A DNA stretch of 64,000 bases from Escallonia rubra (Eukaryota; Streptophyta; Magnoliopsida; Escalloniales; Escalloniaceae), in NCBI GenBank assembly GCA_033065855.1, contig JAVXUO010002980.1:62001-126000 (forward strand), written 5' to 3'. The stretch's first letter is position 1; every line of letters starts with the position of its first letter. Positions 2,240 to 64,000 of the stretch are shown one piece after another. A model generated the notes under the pieces. The model was not told the origin of the DNA. It worked only from the letters and a program-made list of their open reading frames with translations, and did not search any database. The translations under genes were made by a program, and so were the position numbers.

Positions 2240-4308
2240 TCAAATATATTCAGTTTGGGAATCATCATCATCTTCATCGCTAGACTCGTCATACTCTTCT
2301 TCGTGGGACTCTTCAACCTCTTCATCTTGTAATTCATCCTCTTCATCAGTAGACTCAGTCACATCATCTTCAACACTTTCCACGTCTTCCGCGTCATCAT
2401 CTACGACTTCTTCTCCTACATGAAGTGTTGTTGGAAGAGGAAGATTGTCCTCCTCGTTGTTCACCTCAACAGGTAACAACACATAAGTTTGGTCGGCTTG
2501 AAAGGTGTCTACCTCACCGTCATATGTCACGGGCAATTTCTTGGACTTGATAATTGTATACCAATGAGATTTGGGATTTGCGATGTCCTCCGCATAAAAG
2601 ACTTGTGCAGCTTGACTAGCAAATACAAACGACTCGTCTGATGCAAGTCTCGACTTGACATTGACATCTACAATCCCTTGAGAGTTAACATGGATTCCTC
2701 CACTGCATGTGACATTGAACCATGTACACTTGAACACTACAAGTCGATTTTTGGAACCCAAATATGCTAGCTCAACAATCTCATCTAGCTTTCCATAAAA
2801 GTCCATGCAATTCTCGTCATAACAGTCGCCGTTGACTAAGACTCCACAGTTTTGGGTTTGTTTTGTTCGGTCATCATCTTTTACGTTAAACCTAAACCCG
2901 TTGATGATATAGCTTCCATGACAGGATGCTTGTTTATTAAGGCCTTGAGCTAGTAATTTCAAGTAGGAGGCTACTGGTCTATCCGTTGACTGAACATATT
3001 GTAGATGATGGTAAAAATTAAGGATAAATCAGCATACTAATTGGCCACATAACTGTATATAACACATAATATAATTTCGTTAAAGACTTACACGTCTTTT
3101 GAACAACTATACAAATTGTGATTTTCGATGAGATTCAAGTCCAGCGGGATCAATGATTAAAGATTTCGCATCGAACTCAACGAATGCTGAAACTTCATCA
3201 CAGTTTAGAAGGGCATATATTGTTGCAGAACTGTGCTCTTCATCCGTTAGCCATCGAGTATAAGTTCGGCCGAACGGACTACCTGACTGCTTGAATATTA
3301 ACAATTGCCCTTTCAAATTTGTGCTTGATCCGGGCTCATTTCGGCCTAGTTGATTTAACCTTGTATCAACGTCAAGCCTAAAATATTGGCTACAAAAGTT
3401 TACAAGCTCTTCCATTACGTAAGCCTCCGCAATTGAGCCCTCAACCCGAGCTTTATTATGGACTTTTTTCTTCAATTGTAACATGAACCTAGAAGTTTAG
3501 CGAATCGAGTCAGGTGGATATTTCTATGATAACAGGTTTTGCATTTAGTGTAAACGAACAACTGTAACAATTTAAGGATTACCTCTCGAAGGGATACATC
3601 CACCGATATTGCACAGGTCCACCCATCTTAGCTTCATATGCCAAGTGCATAGGCAGATGCTCCATTGAATCAAAGAACGAAGGTGGGAAGATTTTCTCCG
3701 GTTTGCAAATCTACACCACAATGTTCTTCTCAAGCACCTCCATGTTACTCACCCGGATCGTAGAAGAACATATATTTAAAAAAAATGAGATAATTTAGTC
3801 AAAGTCTCGCATACTGCCCGTGGCAACAGTCCCCGAAAGACAATAGAAATGAATCTCTCCATGAATACGTGGTAGTCGTGACTCTTCATCCCTTCGAACT
3901 TGTATTCTGATACATTGCAACAACAAGATATGTTGGACATAAACCCATCCGGAAGCTTTAAATTCTTAACCCACTGACAAACCTTCTCAATTTTTTTTTC
4001 GTGTCTAGACAGTAAGGTGCTTCTGGAAGTATCGTCCTCTCGCTGACTGTCCTATGATGCAATTCACGGCGTACACCCAACTGTTGTAGATCCTTTACGG
4101 TGATCTTTCGATTTTCCCTTCACATTCATTACTGTGTTGAACACATTATCAAAAGCATTCTTCTCAATGTACCTCACATCCATGTTGTTTCGGCTAATGA
4201 GTGTCCTCCAGTAGGCTAACTCCCAGAAAATTCAATGTTTCCTCCAGTTATGCTCTTTCCCGTATCCTGGAATCTTTTGATCTAGCACACCATTGCCATA
4301 TGGTATGT
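2240..4308 (-). pseudogene. CACTA-1 TNP2 transposase, C-terminal part (DUF4218 and DUF4216)
   Basis: Reading leftwards from 4308, frame-broken segments give the core line with RNNMDVRYIEKN, a block resembling KLPDGFMSNIS and MKSHDYHVFMERF, then the DUF4218-like MYPFER region near 3590-3660. An open segment at 3107-3484 carries VEGSIAEAYVMEE. The 240-codon open segment at 2240-2962 is a DUF4216-type domain (YIINGFRFNV, VVFKCTWFNV, FVFASQAAQVFY) ending in a long acidic tail. It is the direct continuation of the segment at 7662-8362 once the LTR at 4309-7661 is removed. Stops and frameshifts across 3500-4300 make it a pseudogene, although the DUF4216 exon remains open. Confidence 0.85.
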
Positions 4309-10430: not shown

Positions 10431-13400
10431 TTAACACACCTCTTTCTGTGGAGTAGAGCGTTTTCTTGGTGAAGCCCGTAGCATGTGCATCACGTTCCCT
10501 TGATCTTGAGGCATTTGCTTCTGTGGAATTGGCTGCTGCACATTAAAGTGTTTTCTTGGTGAAACTCGTGGCACGTGCTGCATATTCCCTGGACGTACTG
10601 TACGAGATAATGATACCACTCGACGACTGCTTGATTCATCAGGAACCTGATACCATTAACATGGGGTATAATGTGTAATAATTAGATAAAAGAACTTCAA
10701 ATTCTCACAAAGGAAATAGTGAAACTTAACTTGTCCAGTTCCGGAAGAAACGTCCTGGGAAGACTGCATCGACAACATCACAGTCCGTATATGGGACATC
10801 ATGTTCTCTTGCATTTTAGCCTCCAACTGTGCCTTTATGGTTGATACTTGAGTTGATACTTGGACTGCTACCTGAGTTTGCATCTCTTGTTCCATTTCAG
10901 CTCGCATTTCATCTTTCATTGTAGCCTCCAATTGTGTTTTGATAGTTGATACTTGACTTGACACTTGGGCTGCTATTTGAGTTTGCATTTCTTGTTCCAT
11001 TTCAGCACGCATTTTATCTATCTCTTCTTGCCTAATGTCTCTTGTCTCTACTCGACCAACTCTATATGATGAACCAAAGGCACTACTCGGACAAACGCCT
11101 AACCCAAGCCCACGAACACGTCCATTTTTATCATTGCCCATGACTTTGGAGAATGTATCGTCGAAACCATAAGCTGGCTCTTGAACGGAATCTGGAAGTT
11201 CTGATGCAAACGTGTCCATTTTATCCTGCGTAAACAAGAGAGTAAAAAGGCCACTATTATCCAACTTATTATTGCTAATGTTTATAGTAAAAAAAAAAAA
11301 AAAAGACGGGAAAAAAAGACATACAACAGCATCAGCCACTTCTCCAGTTGTATATTGCCCTTGCTTCTCCCCAGTCTTATACTTGTGTGTTCCTTTAAAA
11401 AACTCACGACGGGATGGATCTCTACCGATAGAATTCCTTAGCTGCATACCCATTAAGAATTACATTAGTAGGTCACTAGTCATCTACACTAACTATAATT
11501 ACATTAGTAGGTATATGAGAGTTTACCTCCACTCTTACTTGTGCACTACTCTTCCGACCATTTGTATGAGGGAACTTCATTTTCTCCCTGTTTTTTTTGT
11601 TTTTTTCACTCCTTGCCTTGCATTTGAAAGAAAACAGAGAAGCATGATTAGGTATTAAAATAGTTTATAAGTACATGCTACTAAAAAGTCAGTCCAAGCC
11701 ATTTGAAACATACCTTCACGTTTTTGCCACCCCAATAGTGGACAAGAATAGGCCATTGATTCTCTTCCACCCTATTCGGGCGATTTGCCAAGCGCTCAAC
11801 ATCGTTATCATACGGATCATAACCCTTGGCCTTCACAGAATGCTTCCACTCCTTCCATTTCTTCCCAACAGACATCATGAGAACTCTTCTCATCTCCGTT
11901 GTTGCATTTGTGTTCTCCTATATATATATGGTGATGACATACAAAGAAATGCTACTATTAGACGTGGGAATTAATACTTACCATTCATTCAAATTTCAGC
12001 AGGAAAACAACTATTTTGCACCCACCTTCGCCTTCCCTTTTTCCACTTCTATACCCACATAAACACAATCAACAATCACACAACATGGCTGCAACAGCAG
12101 TCATTCCCACAAAAACCAATGTACATGCCCACCCACGACACAGCACCATGCATGGCTGCCCACCATGGCAGCCACCTTCTCCTTCCCTTTTCCACTTCTA
12201 CACCCACCTAAACACCCTATAAACCCACCCACGACACAGCACCATGGCTGCCCACCATGGCACCCACCTTCGCCTTCCCTTTTTCACTTCTACACCCACC
12301 TAAACACCCTATAAACCCACCCACGACACAGCACCATGGCTGCCCACCATGGCACCCACCTTCGCCTTCCCTTTTTCACTTCTACACCCACCTAAACACC
12401 CTATAAACCCACCCACGACACAGCACCATGGCTGCCCACCATGGCACCCACCTTCGCCTTCCCTTTTTCACTTCTACACCCACCTAAACACCCTATAAAC
12501 CCACCCACGACACAGCACCATGGCTGCCCACCATGGCACCCACCTTCGCCTTCCCTTTTTCACTTCTACACCCACCTAAACACCCTATAAACCCACCCAC
12601 GACACAGCACCATGGCTGCCCACCATGGCACCCACCTTCGCCTTCCCTTTTTCACTTCTACACCCACCTAAACACCCTATAAACCCACCCACGACGACAC
12701 AGCACCATGGCTGCCCACCATGGCACCCACCTTCGCCTTCCCTTTTTCACTTCTACACCCACCTAAACACCCTATAAACCCACCCACGACACAGCACCAT
12801 GGCTGCCCACCATGGCACCCACCTTCGCCTTCCCTTTTTCACTTCTACACCCACCTAAACACCCTATAAACCCACCCACGACACAGCACCATGGCTGCCC
12901 ACCATGGCACCCACCTTCGCCTTCCCTTTTTCCACTTCTATACCCACATAAACACAATCAACAATCACACAACATGGCTGCAACAGCAGTCATTCCCACA
13001 AAAACCAATGTACATGCCCACCCACGACACAGCACCTTGCATGGCTGCCCACCATGGCAGCCACCTTCTCCTTCCCGTTTCCACTTCTACACCCACCTAA
13101 ACACCCTATAAACCCACCCACGACACAGCACCATGGCACCCACCTTCGCCTTCCCTTTTTCCACTTCTATACCCACATAAACACAATCAACAATCACACA
13201 ACATGGCTGCAACAGCAGTCATTCCCACAAAAACCAATGTACATGCCCTCCATCATGGCTGCTCCTACACAGCTGTTATTGCAGTGGTTATTCCCTGCTT
13301 CCATATCCTCCATATATTAAGATAAATACCAAGAACATATATTAAGTTTTGGAGACAAATGACTTCAGCTATTACACACATTATATAACTTTATACCTTA

Positions 13401-14518: not shown

Positions 14519-17500
14519 TTATCGTACTTTTCTCCTCTTTCTCCTTTGCCTAGGATCATTGGTGAGTGTGGGGTCAACTTCAGTTCCAACTAAACCTTGC
14601 CTTACCCAGGTAACATCCTCATCACATATGAACGTTGAGTCATCCAAAGATTGCTCATTCCAAAAATTAGTATGATACTGACTATGAGCTTCGTCTGGAG
14701 ATTCTTCTTCAAGAAGATCAAAAAAGTCTCTAGGCTTTGCCTTGACAACGATGTGCCAGTCTTCTTCTACCGCATCTTGGACATAAAAAACTTGTTCAGC
14801 TTGAGATGCAAATATAAACGGTTCATCTGATATGCTATGTGAATGCGCCAAATGGTTGAAGTTTACAAGCGTAAAACCCAAGCCATCTCGGTCAACAAGT
14901 CCAGTACCATTATCTACCCAGTCACACTTGAATAGCACAAACCTATATTTTTTAGAATAATGTAGAACTATGATGTCTGTCAAGACTCCATAGTAGTTTA
15001 CATCTCCCGCTATAGGATTCATGTCTCTTGCACTTGCATAACTATCTGTATTTGCCTTAACCATGACCCCACTATGCTGAGTTATTCTATTACTCTCGCG
15101 AGCCTTCGTGTGATACTTAAATCCATTTATAACATATCCTGTATATCTCTCTGCCTTCTTTAAAGGACCCATTGCCAATGATATAATTTCTTCAGATAAT
15201 GCCTCGTCACCTTCCTCGTATAGCTTTTGGACCTATTTTCAAATGGTGGAAAAAGTTTCAGGTTAAAGATTGCACCCACATTAGAATTAACTTGAAGTGA
15301 AGCAATAGATACTACACTCATTTTACTTACATGATTTCTAAACCATATGTGAAAAGTCTCATTATGAACTTTATTGACATCATGCGGTCGAAGTCGGCGA
15401 TTACTCCTTCTAATGGATGCATGATGTTCACTGCATAAATTATATACTGAGTTACAAAACCACGCGAACATAGGAAAAAAACCATATTCATGTCAGATTC
15501 TCACCGTCGATATTGAGTTATTGCATCAGAGTTGACAAGAACATATCGGTGTGCTTGTGCATATGAAACGTCATCAAGTACAAATCCCTCTGATGCCCCT
15601 AAAGGGCGACCTCCTACCGAATTCCTAGTACTGTCTCCGCCATCATCAAGCCTAAACGGTCGATTCAACTTTGTCTCAACATCGTTATTTAGATACCTTG
15701 AGCAAAATGTGACGCACTCCTCTAACCAGTATCCTTCTGCAATTGATCCCTCTGGACGGCTTCGAGTCCTTACATAGCCCTTAAGAGTAAAAAGGTATCT
15801 AAAATGCCAAATAAAAAATAAAAGCTCAATAAGAAAGTTATCACACGTGGGCCATAACTAACAAATAACATCAAACTAAATTTAGAAGCAATAACACACC
15901 TCTCAATAGGGTACATCCAACGATACTGTGGTGGTCCACCTATCAAAGCTTCTTCGGCTAAATGAATAACCAAATGCTCCATGATATCAAAAAATGATGG
16001 CGGAAATATCCTCTCAAGGTGGCAAAGTGTAAGCGCAATACGTGATTGAATATGACTCAGTTCTTCAACATGCATGACTTTTGAGCAAATTTGCCTAAAA
16101 AAGTTGCTCAGCTCAATCAAAGGTTTCACTACGTTCTCCGGCAACACGCTTCGCAGAGAGATAGGAAGTAGCTGTTGAATAAGGATATGGTTATCATGAC
16201 TTTTGAGTCCCGAAATACTTCGTTTTTGAAGATTGACACGTCGTGATATATTCGAAGCATAACCATCTGGGACTTTAACCCGCTTCAAGACTTTCAGCAC
16301 ATCATATTTGTTCTTATTATCCAGAGAGAAAGATGATGGTGGCAAATAAAATTTGTTACCCGCCCGTTGTTGAGGATGCAGTGCCTTTCGAATACCCATT
16401 TCCTTTAGATCATTGCGAGCATTTAAATTGTCCTTTCCTCTACCATCTATATTCAACAACGTCCACAGTATGTTGTCACATACATTTTTCTCAATATGCA
16501 TCACGTCAAGATTGTGACGTAGCAAATTGTCCTTCCAATAAGAGAGCTCAAAGAATATACTTAGCTTTTTCCAATTATGTGCCTCACTATCATCCTCATT
16601 GTTGTCTCTTTTCCTCTTCTTACTTTCTTGAGCTTTACCCTTACCAAACTCATTCTTTATGTCCTTAACTTGCTCATAGACTTCAGCTCCAGATAATGGA
16701 ATGGGCTTTGGATCTAATTCAACTTCACCATCAAAAGAAACTTTATCTCTTCGAAACTTATGCCCCTGATCCAACCATCTACGATGTGTCGGATAGCACT
16801 CCTTCTTTCCATGACGCAGACGACGAGACTTTGTGTACCTGTGACACAAAGGACACGCCAGCTTCCCTTTCGTGCTATATCCCGACAACATTGCATATCC
16901 TGGAAAATCACTTATCGTCCACATTAGTGAAGCGCGCATCTTAAACATTTGATTGCTAGCTGCATCATAAGTGTCTACACCAATCCATAGTTCCTTGAGC
17001 TCGTCAACCAAAGGACGCAAGTACACATCTATGTCATTACCTGGTCCCTGAGGACCATCTATTAGAAGAGACATCATCATGTATTGTTGTTTCATGCAGT
17101 TCCAGGGAGGCAAGTTATATGGAATCAAAATTACTGGCCATGTGCTGTGAGCTATATTCATACTCCTAAACGGGTTAAATCCATCCGAAGATAATCCAAG
17201 TCTTACATTACGTGGATCACTTGCAAAATCTGGATGAAGTTCATCAAAATGTTTCCAAGCACGAGAATCAGCAGGATGCCTTAGAACCCCATCATCAGTA
17301 CGCTCATCTGCATGATACCTCATAAGAGATGCTGTCTTTGGTGACATGAAGAACCTCTGAAGTCTTGGTATCAAAGGGAAGTACCTCACTACCTTGGTGG
17401 GTATCTTCATTTCCCTAACTTCATCATCATTTGGTATAGCCTTTGACTGTTTGTATCTAGGGGTATGACAATGTAAACACTTGCGCTCATAAGCTGTCTC

Positions 17501-18166
17501 TTTCCAGTATATCATACAGTCATTGGAGCATGCATGTATCTTCTTATAATCAAGCCCTAAATTCCCAATTATCTTTCGAGCTTCGTAGAATGACTTTGGT
17601 AATGTTTCGCCTCTAGGGAATGCATCTTTCAATAACTTAAGCAGCATTGTAAATACCTTGTCACTCATTGCACTCAGACACTTTATATTCAACAGCAAAA
17701 TAAGGAACGAGAGTGTCGAATACTTCTCACAACCAGGATACAACTCTTTTTCAGCTTCCTTTACGAGATTGAAGAACTTCTTAGTTGCATCGTCGAGGTC
17801 ATCACTACTTTCATTTCCTTCCCCACTATACCTCTCATCTAGCTGATTAAACAGAGGGACACCAAAAGCATCACGTATCATTTCTTGTGTTCTATCACCC
17901 ACGACTGGTTCAGGAACAGAACTTGAAGTCAATGATGATTCGCCATGGAAAATCCAATGTGTATAGCTACTTAGAAAACCATCAACCACAATATGTTCTG
18001 CCACATCTACTTTCTTCACGAATTTCATGTTACGACACTTCGTGCATGGGCATAGTATCTCTGTAGCATTAGGTCTATCCTTGGAGGCAAACTCAACAAA
18101 CTCATCAGCACCTTTCTCATACAAAGGATCCAATCTATTTCGTATATTAATCCAACTCTTATCCAT
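14519..18166 (-). CDS. TNP2 transposase of CACTA-2, four exons, intact (1124 residues)
   Basis: This is the catalytic transposase of the CACTA element. Inferred exons: 18166-15900, 15798-15505, 15430-15331 and 15232-14519. All junctions are GT-AG with matching phase, and they total 3375 nt. The N-terminus (MDKSWINIRNRL) with Cys-rich CPCTKCRN is the Transpos_assoc domain. The middle holds the Transposase_21/TNP2 core (LGLSSDGFNPF, STWPVILIPYNLPPW, DIDVYLRPLVDELKELW, LDVMHIEKNVCDN). MYPIER marks DUF4218, and exon 4 is DUF4216 (YVINGFKYHT, FVLFKCDWVD, FIFASQAEQVFYV) with a basic tail, RRKRRKVR. A longer open frame begins at 18193, but 18166 matches the family start. The same gene in CACTA-1 is fragmented. 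Length is typical for a plant TNP2. Confidence 0.93.
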
Positions 18167-20160
18167 ATTGATTTTGAGCCTGAGAGTGTACAAATGAACA
18201 AAATAATTATATCCTTAAATCACATAAAGAATATTGTCCTAGATAGTTGAGAAGCCAAATTCTTGATTACATTAAAGAAAAACCAATAATCTGGCCTACA
18301 CATATTTGCTACTATTCAATATCTGGGAAATGCTAATTCACTGCCACAAGAAGCAGGCCACTGTTATCACCACTGGTATTCTTACACTGCCCATATACCC
18401 ATGAAAAGGAAACTCCAAAAGCGCTTCCCGCAACTTCTTCGTACTAATTTAAATGGTAATGCAGGAACTTATAGGGTAAGCTGGAGACAAATTTCATGCG
18501 TTTATAAGAACGCCGCGCACACACAGAACACACTTGTGTAGGTAAACATGCACATATTTATATGTTCAGTATACTGTGATATAGTACTTCTCAAGATAGA
18601 AGGAAAAGGAAAAAGAAAAATGATCCATTCTTGCATTCAGCACACATTCGTTGAGAATATATTCTTAACTTTGAAACAACATAATACCTTGATCACAAAA
18701 GAAAATGGAGCAACAAAGTTAGAATTCGCAATGTCGTTTTTTCGTGTTCTGCACTTCTCTAATCTTTTGAAACTTTAACTAGCTTTTATGAAATCATAGC
18801 AGTGAATCCTAGACCAATTCAACAAAAGAAAGATCTAGACATACATAAGGCACGAATTAAGGAACGCAAAAAATCACATCAAATACGATTAGTTGCACAC
18901 GTAACCACATGTTGGCAAGAGATTAAGCGCAATGAACATTGTTCAAAAGTGTATAGAACTGTTGGACATTCAGGACTTAAACTATCCCAAGGGCTCCAAA
19001 AACCTCTCCGAAGAGCTTGTGCATTCTTTTTCTTTCCACAAAGCCTAGTACATCATGTTAGAAAACAGGATTTACCAACATCCATGAACACAATTCCTAG
19101 CATTCTACAACTCAAGCATCTTGTGTCTACAGTATGTTAGATAGTCAATTCCTAACAAGCTGTTGTGTCTACAGTCTGTTAGATAGTTACACACACCCTT
19201 GAGATAGTTTAAGTCCTGAATGTCCAACAGTCCTGAATGTCCACCATAATCATTTCACACAAAATGGAACAAAAGTTATGAAAAACATGCTACAGATTAC
19301 AAACATTGGGCAATCCTGTTTCTGTTTCTAAGTCTTTAATAGTCTCTGTTTTCCTCAAAAGATAGCAGAGAATATGGTATATATGCAACTCCATCAAGTT
19401 TGGGGCAAAGGTTCATTATAACATTGAGCTTTGCATATAATAATCTTCCAGCAATGTCAATAAACATGTCACAGGTTTTTACCTGGAACTAATGCAGGAT
19501 TAAGCGCCCAGCAGCCTCTCAGACGGCCTTCTTTTTCCGTCGTGAGCTGAAAAGCAAGAATTCAACGTCAAAATTTAACGAACATTAAGAGATGGTGATG
19601 AATCTTAACATACCATACCTTGCTGAAAATGAATCGGAATTGCACACGTCACTGTGCAATAATTTACAGCGAATTGATTGCGAGAGAGACCATGAGAGCA
19701 GCAAGAGAGCGTAATTAAGGAAGAAGATGGGATTTGGGCGACGGCGGTCTTGAAAGTGGAGGCTGAATCGGTTCAAGTTTCCAACGGCTGAACCGACCGC
19801 TGAATCGACACGAGCAACAGCGATTTGGGGAGAGTGCGAGGGAGGCTGATTGTCGGATGTTCGGAGAAGATGAACAACAGCGATTAAACACGAGCAACAG
19901 CGATTTGGTTCCCGATCGCGATGTATGTAGCGGGACTGTAGAAGACGAGTACTGTAGCACGCCTGTAGCGTCGGATGATTTGAGAAGATGAACTGTTTAG
20001 GAGAAGGAGTACTGTAGCACGCCCCTATTTGGCCGAAAATTTTGGCGCCACGATTTCCCATTGTTTCTTTTTGCTCCGACGTTTATTCACTTTTTGGGTC
20101 AAACCGACGTTTATTCACTTAGACGAGTAAAGATAAAAAACGAAATAAAAGACCAAAACG
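18167..20160. other. Upstream region of CACTA-2 TNP2; no gene, several local repeats
   Basis: No convincing coding sequence. A 27-bp perfect inverted repeat joins about 18960-18988 (tgttggacattcaggactta onward) and about 19204-19231. The phrase ttgtgtctacagt, followed by tgttagatagt, is doubled near 19120-19190. At 19800-19920 the phrase acgagcaacagcgatttgg is doubled, and gtactgtagcacgcc is doubled at about 19950 and 20010. The GC-richer block 19500-20060 may be the transcribed 5' leader and promoter of TNP2 (inference). Confidence 0.55.
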
Positions 20161-21959: not shown

Positions 21960-22778
21960 CTGTACAATGGCTTACTAGGATAAAGTAGGGATGTACTAGG
22001 GTTAAGTAGGTAATTAGCATTGGTAGGTTAAAATATGATAAATAGGGTAATTAGGGTTGGTAAGGTTAATAAGGGTTAACTATGGTTAATTAGGGTTTAG
22101 CGTTTAAGGTTTAATTAATCTAATTAGGGTTTAATAAGATATGTTAGGGCTAATTAGTGTTAGTTAGGAGTACTTTGGGCTAATTATAGCTAATTAGGGT
22201 TGATTAGTACTAATAAGGGCTAATTAGGGTTTAATTGTGCGGATTAGTATTGATTAGTCCTAATTAGGGTTAACTAGGTTATTAGGGTTAATTACGATTA
22301 ATAGGGTTTATAAGATATGTTAGGGCTAATTAGTGTTAATTAGGAATACTTTGGGCTAATTATAGCTAATTAGGGTTGATTAGGACTAATCAGGGTTATT
22401 TAGAGCTAATTAGGGTTTAATTGTGCGGATTAGTGTTGATTAGTCCTAATTAGGCTTAATTGGGTTGTTAGGGTTAATTACGACTAATTAGGCTACCTAT
22501 AATCAACTAGGGTTAATTGGGTTCATTAGAGCTAATCAGGTTTAGTTAGGTTTTAGGGTTTAGGGTTTAATTAATCTAATTAGGGTTTAATAAGATATGA
22601 GTAATTAGGGCTAATTAGGGTTTAATTTGGGATGATTAGTGTTAATTATGACTAATTTGGGGTAATTACATCTAATTAGGGTTCATTGGCATGGGTTCTT
22701 AGGGTTAATAAAAACACTAATTAGAGCTAATTAGGGTTAATTGGGTCCATTAGGGTTAATCATGACTAATTATAACCA
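21960..22778 (+). repeat. Satellite-like array of degenerate TAATTAGGG-type units
   Basis: Nearly every 10-20 bp repeats taattagggtt or gctaattaggg. Longer units recur: aagatatgttagggctaatt appears near 22136 and 22311, and ttaattgtgcggattagt appears twice. The same family forms the arrays at 59563-60632 (mainly reverse orientation) and 62952-64000. Two adjoining copies of the plant telomere heptamer TTTAGGG occur near 22552-22570, but the array is not telomeric. Confidence 0.85.
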
Positions 22779-30433: not shown

Positions 30434-31794
30434 GATTAATTACTCACGGCACCCCTGAGGTTTACCCTAAATTACACACGGACCCCCCTATATTTTGAAA
30501 ATTACACTCTGCTCCGCATTTCACGGAGCCTCACAAAATTGACGGGGACCCTAACTCCGTCTAAAGATTCTCTGACACCTTACTTTTTGGATTTTTCATC
30601 CACAAACTACCCTCCCTTTCTTGAATAAAACCCCACTTACCTTTTAAGATTTTTCTTCTTCTTCTTCATTATCTTTCCCCTTTGCAGACCCATTGGGGTT
30701 TACAATTGATTCAATTTCTGCAAAACACATGGCTAACTCGCCATCATTTTACCAAGTATAGTCTAGGAAGGGGGACATTCTTTACACTTTACAGGTGTGA
30801 TTTTTGTTATGCAGGATTGGTTGCTATGTTTGGGTGGCGTTTGTTGGACGGTGATGGTCCATGAGACGGCGGCAGGGATGAGATTAGGATTGGCCGGCGT
30901 TGGTGCGGTGTTGGTTGCGGCGTTTGGGTGGCTATTTTCCGGCCGATATTGGTGGACGGCGTGTGGGGTTGGTTGCGGCTGCGATAGGGGAAATCGAGAT
31001 CGGTAAAGGAAAAAGAAACGCTCTCCTCGACGGCAGAGAAGAGGGAGGGGTGAAGGCGAAGATGGTCTGCAGCGTTCGTTCCATCCCTGCTACAGAGAAG
31101 AAGGTGTGGCAGTGGGTGATAGAACTTGACAGTGTGGATGTTGGCTGCCTCGACATCGCCAAAATTTCATTGGTTGGGCATCCCGTAGCCGGAATTTCTG
31201 CCGGCAGTCGTCAATGGTTCTTCTTGTCGTTTGCTTGCTAGTGGCACCGGCCGGAATCGGCCATCGAAGACCGGATACAATGCCGGCAGCAACGATTGCA
31301 TGCGACTTGGAGGTGGCGATGGGCGGTGCTCTGGTCACGGCACGGTGGTCGTGGATGTGCGGCGCGATGCTGCTCGGTGAAAGGTGCAGCTGGATTTGGC
31401 TGCCGGTGACGGCGTGTGGTCGGCGGGGTGAAGGTGCGGAGTTTCGATGGTCGTAGCAGCGAAAAGGACGGTGGCAGCGCTGCGCCGCTGGTAGTAGCAG
31501 GGCATTCGTTGCGGCACGGTGGTCGCGGAGGTGTAGCGCGATGGAGTTCAGTGAAGGAACGGTCGGAGATGTCGTCGGTGGCTGGGTGTAACCCAAGAGC
31601 TAGACGTCTTGATTTCCCTCAAAAACCCAAGAGACATTGTGTACTTATATACGAGGGCAAAAATGTCTTTTTATGACCAGTCGTTAACCCCGTCAAAGAT
31701 ATCTAAATTTTTGGAGCGGAGTGTAATTTTCAAAGATAGGGGGGCCGTGTGTAATTTAGGGTAAACCTCAAGGGTGCCGTGAGTAATTAACCCT
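30434..31794. mobile_element. Mutator-like element with GC-rich internal sequence
   Basis: Terminal inverted repeats of about 85 bp share ttaattactcacggcaccc and gtttaccctaaattacacac. The flanks carry a 9-bp duplication TTTTAAAAA (30425-30433 and 31795-31803), the Mutator size. Length is 1361 bp. The interior (30830-31600) is GC-rich with open frames on both strands but no family I recognise. It may be captured host DNA (Pack-MULE) or intrinsic sequence. No transposase. Confidence 0.85.
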
Positions 31795-46439: not shown

Positions 46440-46609
46440 CTGCCAACAGTATACCTTGTACGCTCTAAAGGCAAAGAATATCAACTCGCCATTAACATAC
46501 GTACGTGAAGTACTGGTTCCTAAAAATGTGCAAGCCCTGCAAATATGTCAAAGAATATTGTCAGGCGCTTCTAAAGCCTTCAACACTTTAACAACTTGAT
46601 TAACAAAAA
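46440..46609 (+). other. Left copy of an inverted duplication flanking a Pack-MULE
   Basis: It is similar to the reverse complement of 48115-48400, sharing cctaaaaatg, gcaagcc, gcaaatat and gaatattgtcaggc. In the right copy the minus strand is open (48151-48411) with a Ser/Ile-rich 86-residue frame. The left copy, read in the matching orientation, has stops. It may be two halves of a diverged gene or an older inverted transposon end. No family recognised. Confidence 0.5.
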
Positions 46610-47049
46610 GAGTTAATTACGTGGTTGACCACTGTACTATAACCCAAATTTCACTTTGACCACTGAACTTCGATTTGTGTCAAAGTGACCATTGGACTCT
46701 TTAATTGATCTCAATTGGGTTATTCTGTCAATTTTGGCCCGTTAACTGCCCATGTGCGAGGCACGTGGAGCTTAAATTAGGGGCAAAATCGTCAAAACAT
46801 AGAGAATATTGGTTTTCTTTTACTTTTCTAATTTTCTTTCTCTTCATCTCTTCTTTCTCCTCCGATCCCCACTACCCACCAAAACTACCCAACCTCTAGC
46901 AGCCATCACCGTCTAGCAGTCCCCCCTCCCCCGCCGCCGGCAGCCTCCCTCGCCTCCACCACGCCGGCAGCCACTTCCAAAACCACCCCACAATACCAGT
47001 AAGTCCGTCGCCCACACACACCGCCCAAAATCTCTTCACAAACCCCGCC

Positions 47050-47660
47050 CTAACGTTTCTCGGGATCACTCACGCCCGAGTCGAGCAGTATCTTGCCGTA
47101 CTCATCCGAGAATGCGGTAAAGTCAGAATCGAAGGACCAGAAGAAAGGAGGCGGGGCCAGCCGCCCCCGCGTGAGTGTTTGCTGGTCGCGGACCTCCAGG
47201 CGGGGGTCAGATTCGCTCATGCAGTGGCCGCATATGACGTAGAGTTTGCCGCCGATGACCGATGCATACGGAGAGAGCCGGGGGTGGTTCATCGGCGGAC
47301 AGGCGACCCAGTCGCGATCCGGCCGGTGGGTGTCGAAGGCGTGCACGTCGGGCAACACTACGCTACACTGGTCGCCCTTTCCACTGCCGCCGAGGGAGAC
47401 GATGGTGGGCCCAACCGCGACGGCGGTGCTGAGCAAATCGGTGGTGAAGGTGCCGGAGAAGGGGCTGAGATGGGTGTCCGGAGGGGGGTTCTTGCTCCGG
47501 CGGCGGCAGCGGTCGGAGGAGGGGTCGACGGAAAACCAGTCAATCTGTCGCCCTCGTTGGTGCCCAGTTGGGCAAGAAGACGGGAAGGACCCAGCAGCTC
47601 TAGGCCCAAACGAAGGCCACGAAGAAGAAGATGAAGAGCAGCCGACGACCAAAACGACGA
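47050..47660 (-). pseudogene. Captured kelch-repeat protein fragment
   Basis: The 225-codon open frame 47050-47727 continues from the PIN piece. After a Ser-rich stretch it gives [24 protein letters not shown], then a kelch-like unit [10 protein letters not shown] and [19 protein letters not shown]. These match F-box/kelch or kelch-only plant proteins (Gly-Gly and spaced aromatic signatures). It contains only about one and a half blades. The C-terminal part after LEVRDQQ is not recognised. The open frame across two captured genes could in principle give a chimeric protein. Confidence 0.65.
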
Positions 47661-47880
47661 CCTGGATAATGAATCTGAAATTCATCGCGTACGGGTTATT
47701 GGTGGAAATGAAGTGGAACGACAGCATCGGGATGGCAAAGATTGCGACAAAGCGGTTGATGCCGGAGCACTGGTCCGGCGAGAATATTTACCACCACCGG
47801 ACGGAGCCGTAGGCAAGGATCATAGCCACGTAGAGGGTATCCCTGTGGCATGGAGATTGCTACCACTGCGGTGATGATGC
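47661..47880 (-). pseudogene. Captured N-terminal fragment of a PIN auxin efflux carrier
   Basis: The minus strand encodes LYVAMILAYGSVRWW, then a stop in place of the usual Lys, then [31 protein letters not shown] and PYAMNFRFI. This is the conserved first and second transmembrane region of PIN proteins, where the family reads RWWKIF(S/T)[12 protein letters not shown]. Upstream, ITAVV matches the residues before VPLYVAM but is separated by roughly 20 bp of unrelated sequence and a frame change. After FRFI the PIN match ends and the reading passes into the kelch piece. Intact PIN proteins exceed 350 residues, and only about 60 are here. Confidence 0.88.
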
Positions 47881-48114
47881 GATGAGCATGGAAGCTCAGA
47901 AGAATGCCACCCTCTTTTTCAGCATTATGAAATGACATATTTACCCTTGGATAAAGTCACTTAACGGACTTAGGGCTAACGGAGCCTAACAGAGTGGCTT
48001 GATTGAACTAATTAACAAATTCAGTGGTCACTTTGACACAAATCTAAGTTTAGTGGTCAAAGTGAAATTTGCCTAATAGTTCGATGGTCAACCGCGTAAT
48101 TAACTCTATCAAAT

Positions 48115-48411
48115 ATGTTAATCCTCGGTGGATATCCAAGAGACTTGTTCTTATGTTAGGGCCAATTCGGTTATGAAATTAGAAGGTATTAGAGCTGAAT
48201 TGTTGGAAAAGTGTGCAGGTGAGGTGCATCCTATGAGGTTGTTGAAAACTTGAAGGCATTGAAAAATGCCTGACAATATTCCTTGAAATATTTGCAAGGC
48301 TTGCGCATTTTTAGGAGGCAATACTTCACTATTTGTTATTGGCGCGTTGATAATTTTTTGTCTTAAGGGCATATATGGTTTATTGGAAGAGCATTTTGAT
48401 GACATCATCAC
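48115..48411 (-). other. Right copy of the inverted duplication, with an 86-codon open frame
   Basis: The minus frame 48151-48411 (MMMSSKCSSNKPYMPL; QALQIFQGILSGIFQCLQVF) is the better preserved counterpart of 46440-46609. No recognised family. Could be part of an old gene split by the MULE. Confidence 0.4.
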
Positions 48412-53380: not shown

Positions 53381-55828
53381 TCAAGACTCGAGACAAATTA
53401 CCTTTCGCTTTTGACATCCAGTACGATTATGACCTTTCAAATGACAATACGTGCAAGTTCTCTGTTTTTTTCCTTTTGTAGCCAATTCTATAGAAGATTT
53501 TAACCTGTTTGGGACTTTTGGACGCCCCTTCATCTTAACAGGGGCAGCAAGGTCACGAACTAATATTTGATGCACACTTTCTACTTGGGAAGTACCTGCA
53601 CTTGAATCGACGTGAGTAACTATTTGACAACCACTAGTTTGATCTGATTTCTTTCTCAAAGCCTGCTTTTCTATGAAACTACGAAGCCAGCCCTCACGCT
53701 TCTCTACGTGGGAAGGGGAATCTCTTGCATCTTCAATTGCCTACGCAAATTTAGCTCATACAGACCATAAAGCTAACAAGGACACCCCATTTTTGTTAAA
53801 ATATTTACTCTCTCCCTCGAACCTACTACCAAATTCGCTACCTTATACCTAGCGGCAATTGTCCATCTAGGAAATATGTAGTGCTTAGGGAGGTCAATTA
53901 GCTTATTCTTCTTCATAATATAGAGGATATGCTTACACACCATACCTTCCGTCTCAAATTTAGCACATGAGCATGTAGCCCTGAAATCAACCGATGAATG
54001 GCAGAAACCTATTTTCCATTTCTCTTTCTCAAAAACTATATGTCCCACCCTGTATGTTGTGAGCTCGACATCCTTACTTAGCGTCTCGTGAGAGCAATCA
54101 ACACTAGCCATCCACTCTTTTTGAAAGATCTCAAACAATCTACGAGTGTAGCACTCCCCCGCCCTTGCTTCTATTGGATAACTAGACAATAGTACAGCTT
54201 TTGAGTTCATCGTATTAAAATCCTCATCTTCTTCTGCACGCCTTCGAGACTTTACTGCTTTATCATACTGCACAGCAAACTCATTCAACATTGTATTTGA
54301 ATTGACATCAGCATCAAATAAGGATTGTGTACTCTCAGTTCTTGCACTTGTGATCATACGCCTTCACCCACTTTTGACGTTTGGTATACATGTTCTGAAG
54401 CCAACTACTTTGTTTCAGTTCATACGTTTCATTTAAAGTTTTCCACCTTGACTCAAATTCCAAAATGGTCTGACTTTTCCCCCACTTAGTGTGTGCCTCG
54501 TGAAAGTTAGCATAACGAGATCGTAATGATTGTAGATGCTCCATGACGTGCTTCTTTATGTGCCATGCACAAAAATGATGCCGAGCATTTGGGAAGACTT
54601 TAGCAATTGCCTTGTTCATAGCATCATCTTAATCGGTAATGATTGCTACCGGGGGCCTGCAAAACATACATTGCAAAAAATGCTCAAACAACCATACAAA
54701 TGTTTCCTCGGTCTCATCCTCCAACAATGCAGCTCCAAATAATATAGATTGTCGATGGTGATTCACTCCAATAAAGGGAGAAAATGGCATCTTATATTTG
54801 TTTGTCTTATAAGTCATGTCAAACACAAGAACGTCATCAAATTGGGCATAGGAGGCCCTTGATCTTTCGCCAGCCCAAGAAACACTCCTTAAAGATCCGT
54901 CTTGAGCCAAATCCATTGCAAAGTAATGCTACCATCTGAAATGGCCTTTTCTCACAAATGCTTAATAATCCCGTAACATGCTCGTCCAACATTATTGTCC
55001 TTCCCCTGTTAATGATACTAGAGCACTGTTTCGCAGCGATATTTCACTCCTCGCCAGGTTTCATAGCATTCATAACCCTCGTAATTTGAGCAGGTTTTAA
55101 GCCTTTTTGGTTAAGAGTATATAAGCCGTTTGCATTCTACGAAACGATGATACTTGCTATGTGAGCGATGTTTGACTACTTTCGACGGGGTAGCACTCAG
55201 AGGATGATTATGAATATCTTCAAACTTGTCCATGACCCCCACGCCGAGCTTCTTCGTCAGTGTAATCTGCTTCATCACTCCACAACCTGTTCTTGTATCC
55301 CTGTGACGTTTTAATTGCTTCCGAAGCTGCCTTTTATCTTCTAACTTCTTGAAGCCTTGCTTATTGCACACAAATTGCCTCCTAAATATCTCATTCGTCA
55401 TCCTATTCTTATGTGAATAGGGGATGCGGGTACCGAAACCCTTCACCAATGCATATAGATTATAAAACTCATATGCGTCGTCTTGTCCGCCAAACACTAC
55501 ATTCCTCAAAGTCCTCACAACGTTCACCATCACGTGTTTTGCCCTCGTTATACTTAAATGGAACAACACCTAAATCCGCACATTCTTGACTTAAATCCCC
55601 ACATTCTTGACCACCCTGCATTTCACCATTGTCAATGATATGCATTTTATCACTGCCATTGCTATATGGATTAAGCCCTAAATCGCCTTCTTCATGATTT
55701 TCAACCCCTACTTCACTTTCGTCAGCAATATCAAATGGCTCGCAGTCAATCACTGGCTGAAAGCATGGCTGCGAAGATGCATCAATCATTTGAACATCAT
55801 CCCCCATGTAGTATTGTATGCAATACAC
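53381..55828 (-). pseudogene. FAR1/FRS-type (Mutator-derived) transcription factor gene, frameshifted
   Basis: Domain order is that of FAR1-related proteins. An acidic N-terminus (55828-55520) is followed by a FAR1 DNA-binding domain (DDAYEFYNLYALVKGFGTRI, HNHPL). Next is a MULE transposase core (FDDVLVFDMTYKTNKYKMPF; VAIITD; HFCAWHIKKHV), then a SWIM zinc finger (CSCAKFETEGMVCKHIL). A CCHC knuckle (CTYCHLKGHNRTGC) comes after GRPKVPNRLKSSIE. About 816 codons fit the family length. Damage includes a frameshift near 55510, several breaks at 54916-55130, a stop replacing the expected Gln after VAIITD (54631-54629), and a frameshift with missing residues near 54350. FRS proteins act in light signalling. 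This copy cannot make a full product. Confidence 0.88.
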
Positions 55829-59562: not shown

Positions 59563-60632
59563 CCTAATCAACACTGATTAATCCTGATTAATGCTAACAT
59601 ACACTAATTAGCACTGATCTACACTGATTAGGCTAATCAGCCCTAATTAACACCGATGGACACTGATTAGCCCTAAGTAGTACCCAGGAAGCACCGACAC
59701 TTCATATGAGTCGAGGTATGGTGTCCGACACCTACCGACACCTCCGGACACGTGTCCGACACCTCTCCGTGGTGTCCTGATCGGTGTTAGTGTCAGGCGC
59801 AGTGTCTGTGCCACCTAGATTAGCACTAATCTACACCGATTATGCTAATCAGCCCTAATTACCCCTAATTAGCACTAATCAAGACTAATTAAGCTAATCA
59901 ACCCCAATTAATAATGATTAGCCTTAATTAGCACTAATCAACACTCATTAGTGCTAATCTACACTGATTAGCACTGATCAACACTAAATAGGCTAATCAG
60001 CCCTAATTAACCCAAATCAGCCCTTATTAGCCCTAATTAGCACTAATAAGCCATAATTAACATTGATGGACACTAAATAGCCCCGATTAGCCCTTATTAG
60101 CAGTAATCAGCCCTAATTAACACCTGTGGACACTAAATAGCCCTAATTAGCTCTAAATAGCCCTGAGTAGTCCTAATTAGCACTAATCAGCCCTAATTAA
60201 AATGATGGACACTAAGTAGCCCTAATTAGCCAGAATTAGCACTAATTAGCCCTAATTAGTGCTAATTAGGGCTAAATAGTCCTAATCAACACTGATGAAC
60301 ACTAATTAGCCCTAATTAGCAATAATAAGCCGTAATTAGCACTAATCACCCCTAATTAACACTGATGGACATTAAATACCCTAATTAACATTGATTAGGC
60401 TAATTAGCTCTAATTAGCCAGAATTAACACTGATTTGCCCAAATTAGCACTAATCAACACTGATTAGTACTAATCTACACTGATTAGCACTAATCAACAA
60501 TGATTAGGCTAATCAGCCCTAATTATCTCTAATTAATACTGGTTAGCCCTATATTAGCCCTATTTAGCACTAATCAACACTGATTAGTACTAATCTACAC
60601 TGATTAGCACTAATCAACAATGATTAGGCTAA
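59563..60632 (-). repeat. Satellite-like array, reverse orientation
   Basis: Repeats of ccctaattagc, cactgattag and caacactgattag, the reverse complement of the 21960-22778 family. The phrase gcactaatcaacactgatta, followed by gtactaatctacactgatta, occurs twice near 60460 and 60570 (a spacing of about 110 bp). CACTA-5 is inserted at the right edge. Confidence 0.85.
59688..59815. repeat. CACGTG-containing block inside satellite
   Basis: aagcaccgacac, then tggtgtccgacacctaccga and ccggacacgtgtccgacacc. Homologous to 23041-23150. Confidence 0.65.
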
Positions 60633-62913
60633 CACTACAAGAACACAGTCTTTTAGCGACGGGATAATCCGTCCCTAAAAGAATTAGCGACGGATTAACC
60701 GTTGCTAAAAATCCCTCGTATAAAAGCCCGTCACTAATAGTTTAAATCCGTCGCTAAATATGTCATTTTTACCGACGGATTTATTTTTCATTAGCGACGG
60801 AATATCCGTCGATAATGATATTGTTAAAATTTTAATTTATTTTCTTTTTTGTCAAATTAGCGACGGATTAAATATTTAGCGATGGAATATTTCGTCGCTA
60901 AATAGCTTATTTAGCGACGGAATATTCCGTCGCTAAATATTTAATTGAAAGGAATATTTTAACGACGGAATAAATCCGTCGCCAAAAGTCAATTTTTTTT
61001 TATTTTTCAATTACCTAAACCTGTACAGAAATACAATTCTCAACAACAACGCGCAATAAGCGAAATACAGAAAAAAAAATATATAATCAATTATAAAAAA
61101 TATTTATTATAAAAGAAACTAATACATGTACAAGCCGGGAACCGGAGATAGCCGGTTAGGAGAGGGGAGAAGAGTACAACCCGGGCGCGGGGGGGGGGGG
61201 AAGCTAGAACGGGCACGGGAAGGGCTCATCAGGGGTTCCCGAGTCCCGGATCTGGATCCTGCTGAACCGGGGCCGGGGCGGCTGGTCCAGCAGTGCCCTG
61301 CTCCCTCATCATCCGGCACACCACTGTAGCAATGCGCTCGATATCCTCCTCGTGCAACTGAGGCCGAGGAGCCGGTGTCTGTGGAGGGGCAGCAGGTGGT
61401 GAGGACGCTCCTATCACGGCACGAGGAGTCGTGCTAGGCAGGCCGCGTATGCGGCCTTTCGGCCGATTCACGACCTCCGGCGTATCCAGCCATCGCTTCA
61501 ACCCCCCAGTACTCGCAGCCGTACTAGTGGACGCTGATGGCTGTCCGGACTGCTGCTCGGACCCCCTTAGCTGTTCATACGAGGCCTGCAAAAATAGTGG
61601 TTTAACGATATGTTATGGCATTAATTAACGAAACAGACATCGAGGATAGAAAGAAACAGATTAACTTAAATAAATTGACTCACATCGATCCGCCGGGCAA
61701 TATCTGAAATATAGTCGCCCGCCTGGTGCGTCTCGTCCTTGTCCTTCTTCCGCACGTGCGTCTGAGTATAGGTCAAAGCTATGACCTCATCCTCCTCTAG
61801 ATCCGGGTGCTCGACCGCGTTCATATGTCGGACGATGTCGTGTGGCACCGACCCCCCCGTGTGCGTCGGATCTCTGTTATGTCTGTTCTCAGCCCCGCTC
61901 TTACTCTTGGCGTCCCAACCTGGATCCGCAGCCCACCGATCTATCATCTCCCCCCATACACGGTGAGATATCCAATGTGGGGGATATTTCGTCATGTCCG
62001 TCATCGGGGCACCCGCGGGCAGCGCCCTCTTCGCCCGGTCCCGTGCATCGTGGAGCCATCGGCGGTAATTCTTGCCGATGTAGGCAAAGAAAGCCTGCTG
62101 CCCCAGTCCCTGCTGCTCAGGCGTATCAAACGTGAACCCCTCCTGTAATGCATTCAATAACACAAATTAACAACATAAAACAAACTGTAATTTAACATTT
62201 ACTAACGCTGAAAAAAATACTTCACCGTACCAGCCACTCCTCCCATAGGGCCTTCCTCGCAGCGGCATCCCATTCCTTCCAGTACAGGCGTGGCTCGAAG
62301 AATCGGCCCTTCACAAGAACGCCGATCTTCGTCCTCGCCATATTCTCCAGGATCCTGCCAAAGAAGTAATTAAATTAATTAATACAGTTCAAATATAAAT
62401 TAACACCCAAAATTTTTAAACATAAGGCATGAGGTGATATTTTTAGTACTTACAGGCCCTCATGCGTGAGCGTAACTCTCTGTTTACGCTGGGGGTCGAT
62501 GCGTACCCCGCGTGTCGGACCACGGCCTCGTCGAGATCCTACAAAACACAGACATTAATACAGTTCAAATATAAGGCTAGCGAAAATGTAGGAAACACCG
62601 TTATCAACTATACCTGAGGTAGAACCCACGGAAGATGGAGACGGCTGGGGCGACGGCGATGGTGGGGGCGACGGCGATGGCTGGGGCGACGGTGACGGCG
62701 ACAGCTGGGGCTGGGCCCTCGATGGCTGTCCGCGATCATTCTGTGCCTCGTCATCAGTAGGCAATGACAAGGTGGGACTAACCGGGGAGGAAGCAGCTCG
62801 GCGTCCAGCCCGGCCACGAATAGCCCGTATCCTATCCATATCTGACTTCATATAGATTATATACAAAGACATTAACACGTGAAAAACAATAATTTGGCAT
62901 AAATCATCATCGG

Positions 62914-62916: not shown

Positions 62917-62951
<35 letters not shown>
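62917..62951. repeat. (TA)n microsatellite at the CACTA-5/satellite junction
   Basis: Pure TA repeat between sequence homologous to CACTA-1 and the satellite array. Confidence 0.95.
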
Positions 62952-62954
<3 letters not shown>

Positions 62955-64000
62955 TAGGACTAATCAGGGTTATTTAGTCCTAATTAGGGTTTAATTGTGC
63001 CGAGTAGTGATGATTAGTCCTAATTAGGGCTAATTGGGCTTAATTGGGTTATGTTAGGGCTAATTAATGTTAATGAGGGATAGTTTCGGATGATTATAGC
63101 TGACTAGGGTTGATTAGGACTAATTAGAGTTATGTAGTCCTAATTAGGGTTTAATTGTGCCAAGTAGTATTGATTAGTCCTAATTAGGGCTAATTGGGCT
63201 TAATTGGGTTATGTTAGGGCTAATTAATGTTAATGAGGGATAGTTTCGGATGATTATAGCTGACTAGGGTTGATTAGGACTAATTAGAGTTATGTAGTCC
63301 TAATTAGGGTTTAATTGTGCCGAGTAGTGATGATTAGTCCTAATTAGGGCTAATTAGGCTTAATTGGGTTATGTTAGGGCTAATTAATGTTAATGAGGGC
63401 TAGTTTCGGATAATTATAGCTAATTAGGGTTGATTATGACTAATTAGAGTTTAATTGTGCCGAGTAGTGATGATTAGTCCTAATTAGGGCTAATTAGGCT
63501 TAATTGGGTTATGTTAGGGCTAATTAATGTTAATGAGGGCTAGTTTCGGATAATTATAGCTAATTAGGGTTGATTATGACTAATTAGGGTTTAATTGTGC
63601 CGAGTAGTGATGATTAGTCCTAATTAGGGCTAATTAGGCTTAATTGGGTTATGTTAGGGCTAATTAATGTTAATGAGGGCTAGTTTTGGATAATTATAGC
63701 TAATTAGGGTTGATTATGACTAATTAGGGTTTAATTGTGCCAAGTAGTGATGATTAGTCCTAATTAGGGCTAATTAGGCTTAATTGGGTTATGTTAGAGC
63801 TAATTAATGTTAGTGAGGGCTAGTTTCGAATAATTATAGCTAATTAGGGTTGATTAGGACTAATTAGGGTTATTTAGTCCTAATTAGGGTTTTGATGGTG
63901 CCGAGTAGTGTTGATTAGTCCTAACTAGCGCTAATTAGGCGTAATTGGGTTATGTTAGTGCAAATTATGACTAATTAGGCTAACTACAATCAATATGCGC
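62952..64000 (+). repeat. Satellite array with 140-bp and 160-bp units
   Basis: The marker ttaattgtgc, normally after taattagggt, starts units at 62981, 63141, 63301, 63441, 63581 and 63721, with a variant at 63881. This gives spacings of 160, 160, 140, 140, 140 and 160. The 20-bp difference is the presence or absence of a tatgtagtcctaatta-like segment. The array runs off the window. Same family as 21960-22778. Confidence 0.9.

Follow-up and report, generated by a model that had tools for sequence, protein, structure and literature searches.

In the 64,000-nt stretch of Escallonia rubra DNA analysed here (the window), a 1497-bp element at 46610-48106 is bounded by terminal inverted repeats (TIRs) of 97 bp and flanked by an imperfect 9-bp target-site duplication (TSD), and its GC-rich interior carries, in the same orientation, a fragment of a PIN auxin carrier and a fragment of a kelch-repeat protein. 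The features of the locus are listed below in ascending order.

46601..46609, no strand: left copy of the TSD, 9 bp, TAACAAAAA, directly adjoining the TIR
46610..46706, plus strand: left TIR, 97 bp, beginning GAGTTAATTACG; identical at 83/97 positions to the reverse-complemented right TIR
46707..47049, no strand: left interior, pyrimidine-rich on the plus strand
47727..47050, minus strand: 225-codon frame, running from an internal PIN methionine over the stretch between the pieces into the kelch piece; open from stop to stop over 47787-47050
47481..47164, minus strand: captured kelch-repeat fragment; ends taken from the Kelch_FKB95 match and approximate, so that the true extent may be wider
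47667..47482, minus strand: stretch between the PIN and kelch pieces, 62 codons within the 225-codon frame
47838..47668, minus strand: captured N-terminal fragment of a PIN auxin carrier, 57 codons, of which the one at 47790-47788 is an in-frame stop
47938..47696, minus strand: upstream frame of 80 codons in another reading frame, overlapping the start of the 225-codon frame
48010..48106, minus strand: right TIR, 97 bp
48107..48115, no strand: right copy of the TSD, 9 bp, TATCAAATA, directly adjoining the TIR

Judged by its content, the window appears to be a transposon-rich piece of a plant nuclear genome: it contains a tnp2 (CACTA-type) transposase as well as DUF4216, FAR1, F-box and senescence-regulator sequences. 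Scans of it for tRNA genes and Rfam families were negative. On the minus strand, a tnp2 transposase occupies an 814-codon open frame at 15770-18214, and a DUF4216 piece lies apart from it at 2240-3028. Self-comparison additionally revealed repeat arrays at 12018-13251, 22048-22772, 59814-60634 and 62951-63993, the last three of which (22, 60 and 63 kb) match one another; the 22-kb array contains two GGGTTAATTAC motifs resembling the MULE ends.

Limits of the element and target-site duplication

The limits of the element were obtained by cutting its inverted-repeat arms (46609-46706 and 48010-48107, 98 nt, 86% identity) back to the TSD, which leaves two TIRs differing at 14 of 97 positions. A preliminary description of this DNA, made from its letters, had proposed a unit of about 1.5 kb between inverted repeats of about 95 bp, and these dimensions proved accurate; the TSD is an addition of the present analysis. 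When lengths of 8, 9 and 10 were searched with each end moved by up to 3 bases, TAACAAAAA and TATCAAATA were the sole 9-mer pair with at most two mismatches (7/9 alike, 2/9 mismatched), three 8-mer pairs reached 6/8, and no 10-mer pair passed. As a background, among 87,300 9-mer pairs drawn from the two flanks, 0.25% agree at 7/9 positions or better. The TIR divergence (K2P 0.162) and the imperfect TSD together suggest an old insertion; we dropped an age in years, because it would presuppose a known rate and because the TIRs may have differed already at birth.

Within the window, to which the self-search was confined, the TIR has no second copy, and an exact 22-base TIR pattern gave 0 matches in the IMG/VR collection, where plants are not expected. 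A second inverted-repeat element lies at about 30434-31794, with a GC content of about 50%, ends that are 92% identical over 92 aligned columns including flanking A/T, and an end motif (GATTAATTAC / GGGTTAATTAC) similar to the ends of the element at 46610-48106. Its candidate TSD, TTTTAAAAA, is 9 bp long, agrees at 9/9 or 8/9 positions, according to which of two adjacent bases is taken as the boundary, and lies within a near-palindromic A/T run; no Pfam family was found in five frames tested. Possibly, it is another MULE. Furthermore, on the minus strand at 53773-55569, one frame encodes a FAR1 DNA-binding domain (E 1.1e-18) and a different one matches SWIM below the cut-off; this region is predicted to be a FAR1-like gene, or one resembling a Mutator transposase gene, that is either broken or interrupted by introns.

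According to the literature, which is cited throughout from excerpts of the papers, MULEs have TSDs of 9-11 bp and TIRs of typically 100-500 bp (PMC3310237). The element accordingly has a TSD of a typical length directly adjoining its TIRs, and TIRs slightly below the typical range; the two TSD mismatches and the somewhat short TIRs count against reading it as a Pack-MULE, as do the searches of the window, which found no second copy of the TIR, no parental gene and no matching transposase. A benchmark of packFinder on rice Pack-MULEs tolerates two TSD mismatches (PMC8903248). GC content is 0.56 in the interior of the element and 0.60 at 47050-47890 as opposed to 0.405 in the window, in agreement with the reported preference of Pack-MULEs for GC-rich gene parts (PMC3310237; PMC4858842).

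The fragments might have been joined by another route, as filler DNA or in a Helitron or another TIR superfamily, with inverted repeats that are unrelated to them. Besides the imperfect TSD, this could be argued from the position of the element between other inverted-repeat arms (46447-46595 and 48238-48385, about 150 bp, 79%, more diverged), which bracket it, so that it occupies the loop of this outer inverted repeat. Nevertheless, such an origin is very improbable, considering that 97-bp TIRs are exactly adjoined by a 9-bp TSD of a quality that few flank pairs attain, and that size and GC content are typical.

Two captured gene fragments

The PIN piece matches Pfam Mem_trans (E 1.2e-7, above the family cut-off) and the NCBIfam model 'auxin efflux carrier' (E 1.3e-11; 44 bits, below the whole-protein cut-off of 246). 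A query beginning at INRF and extending through the kelch piece matched the PDB entries 'Auxin efflux carrier component 3' (E 5.5e-12) and '1' (E 8.1e-10), which we take to be Arabidopsis PIN3 and PIN1. The piece represents the N-terminal region of PIN proteins; in the PIN1 chain it covers residues 16-31 and 42-73. The PIN segment of the preliminary description is confirmed, and its homology is not limited to a short stretch, since the sequence upstream of the in-frame stop, LYVAMILAYGSVRWW, still matches component 3 (E 4.6e-4) and component 1 (E 8e-4). The PIN string RFVAIFAIP... quoted in the preliminary description starts before the ATG of the 225-codon frame.

For the kelch piece, the match to Pfam Kelch_6 (E 1.6e-6) is above the family cut-off and that to Kelch_FKB95 (E 1e-6, spanning about 47481-47164) below it, further kelch models match more weakly, and the best PDB match is a kelch propeller labelled SAKe6AC-LB (E 1.3e-13), which bears out the earlier placement of a kelch piece after the PIN segment in the same minus-strand frame. 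A weak DUF1668 match, below its cut-off, extends from the kelch side to about 47523. Third-position GC in the homology frame is 0.78 both in the PIN codons (31/40; unequal positions, p 6e-5) and in 47571-47053 (135/173; p 4e-6), and such codon-phased GC is as expected of former coding DNA.

No homology above a cut-off was found in the stretch between the two pieces. A Pfam search of 47533-47667 in the three minus-strand frames returned no family in its own frame or in one other, and a VirB3 match in the third (E 0.054, below the cut-off) was taken as chance. Over the 32 codons of 47667-47572, third-position GC is 0.56 and the maximum falls on position 2 (0.69); although the GC phase differs, the inequality is not significant (p 0.13), and we do not take a frame shift of this stretch as demonstrated. 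The kelch-side part of 47482-47667 may derive from the kelch parent. In the left interior, no Pfam family was found in 46705-46899 (plus strand) or 46896-47069 (minus strand).

The 225-codon frame

A single open frame of 225 codons does cross both pieces on the minus strand at 47727-47050, as had been described, and each piece is read there in its native frame. Its start, an internal methionine, lies 20 codons past the in-frame stop of the PIN piece, and because of that stop the frame retains just 20 PIN residues. Reading from the right TIR within the element, five earlier ATGs precede it; those at 47938 and 47851 share one frame, which continues to 47696 and so overlaps the beginning of the 225-codon frame. 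An undisrupted frame through both pieces that is reached by the first ATG is hence not present, owing to the stop and the five upstream ATGs.

In 1000 dinucleotide-preserving shuffles, scanned in six frames for ATG-started frames of at least the observed length, a frame of 225 codons or more arose by chance in 5/1000 shuffles of the whole interior and in 24/1000 of the GC-rich core (46900-47899), so the length is uncommon by chance but not decisive. Captured coding DNA would moreover be open by descent. The opposite strand is open for 244 codons over much of the same GC-rich DNA, and we therefore rejected the long frame as proof of coding.

If the frame were a functional chimeric gene, a promoter in the TIR would drive a protein combining part of a PIN membrane segment with kelch motifs. 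The open 225 codons, the native frames of both pieces and the low frequency of such frames in the shuffles would fit this idea, yet the start is internal and preceded by five ATGs, two of them with the overlapping frame, the PIN piece is cut by a stop, and the kelch piece, with one Kelch_6 motif and partial others, would not be expected to form a closed propeller. Additionally, protein-coding Pack-MULEs are reported to be rare, although 40% are transcribed (PMC8277862), and for the majority of MULE-derived putative genes in Oryza neutral evolution was inferred (PMC4858842). Taken together, we consider a functional chimeric gene highly unlikely on the features of the DNA. Of the preliminary description, the statement that two unrelated genes were captured and joined stands, whereas the potential new chimeric reading frame exists in the letters and is otherwise weak, given the stop in the PIN piece, the upstream ATGs, the intervening stretch with no homology above a cut-off and the frequency of chance frames.

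Discussion

The TIRs, the size, the 9-bp TSD, the GC enrichment, the lack of a transposase family in the frames scanned (not every short frame) and the two unrelated protein families support a Pack-MULE with two captured fragments, PIN and kelch, both from host genes other than those of transposons. Overall, we are confident that the locus is a single, aged, non-autonomous Mutator-like transposon which most likely yields no protein at present. The parental genes and a matching transposase were not found within the window.

By analogy with its family, the element would have been moved in trans by a Mutator-type transposase. The two fragments would have been acquired from two host genes between the TIRs by gap filling or template switching, the published models of Pack-MULE origin being gap filling or fork stalling (PMC8277862), and the element would then have inserted at its present site. 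Transcription from the right TIR or its vicinity would place other start codons ahead of the 225-codon frame and, as the PIN part is already interrupted as well, the element most likely makes no protein now. If it is transcribed, a non-coding effect, through small RNA or none at all, would be the likeliest outcome.

Such an effect could take the form of a regulatory RNA source, in which transcripts or read-through would give rise to small RNAs that match the PIN and kelch genes of origin. This role has been reported or proposed for Pack-MULEs generally (PMC13317346, PMC8277862), and the captured DNA is flanked by inverted repeats that are themselves enclosed by the outer, more diverged pair. 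Targeting would require sufficient DNA similarity between the captured pieces and their parents, and we regard this as an unlikely role for the element. Still less likely is a lineage-specific protein or RNA made from the captured PIN and kelch sequence that would, for example, interfere with the expression of the parental auxin carrier.

The element is real and of a well-known kind, reflecting the collection of gene scraps by plant transposons. It is a further clear example of Mutator-like transposons shuffling gene fragments, here with a developmentally important family, PIN, as a parent. By itself it leaves the general view unchanged, and it would gain importance only through transcripts, small RNAs or selection that linked it to auxin-carrier regulation. 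A search of the open literature, subscription papers lying mostly outside it, found no report of a Pack-MULE or Mutator-like capture of an auxin efflux carrier or PIN1 and none of PIN and kelch as a pair of parents; papers on Pack-MULEs and kelch describe no such element in their titles and abstract openings.

With the Pack-MULEs of rice, maize, Arabidopsis and tomato, the element shares long TIRs, a 9-bp TSD, small size, GC-rich gene pieces and the absence of a detected transposase, and, as in a subset of them, it has several parent genes, here two; apart from its imperfect TSD, no structural difference was seen. Pack-MULEs may hold fragments of multiple genes that form new frames (PMC9168764). 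In most Oryza species studied, about 100-300 (5-10%) of MULE-derived putative genes have two or more parents, and japonica rice has 264 with at least two (PMC4858842). Like these, the present frame derives from two captured parents inside a MULE; however, the Oryza genes overlap annotated transcripts and some are expressed (PMC4858842). Host gene pieces are also carried by other transposons, such as the maize LTR element Bs1, which took them from three genes (PMC13317346), and the soybean CACTA element Tgm-Express (PMC1947982). Both belong to other transposon kinds, and Bs1, in contrast to the reading that we favour for the element described here, is reported to be transcribed and translated (PMC13317346).
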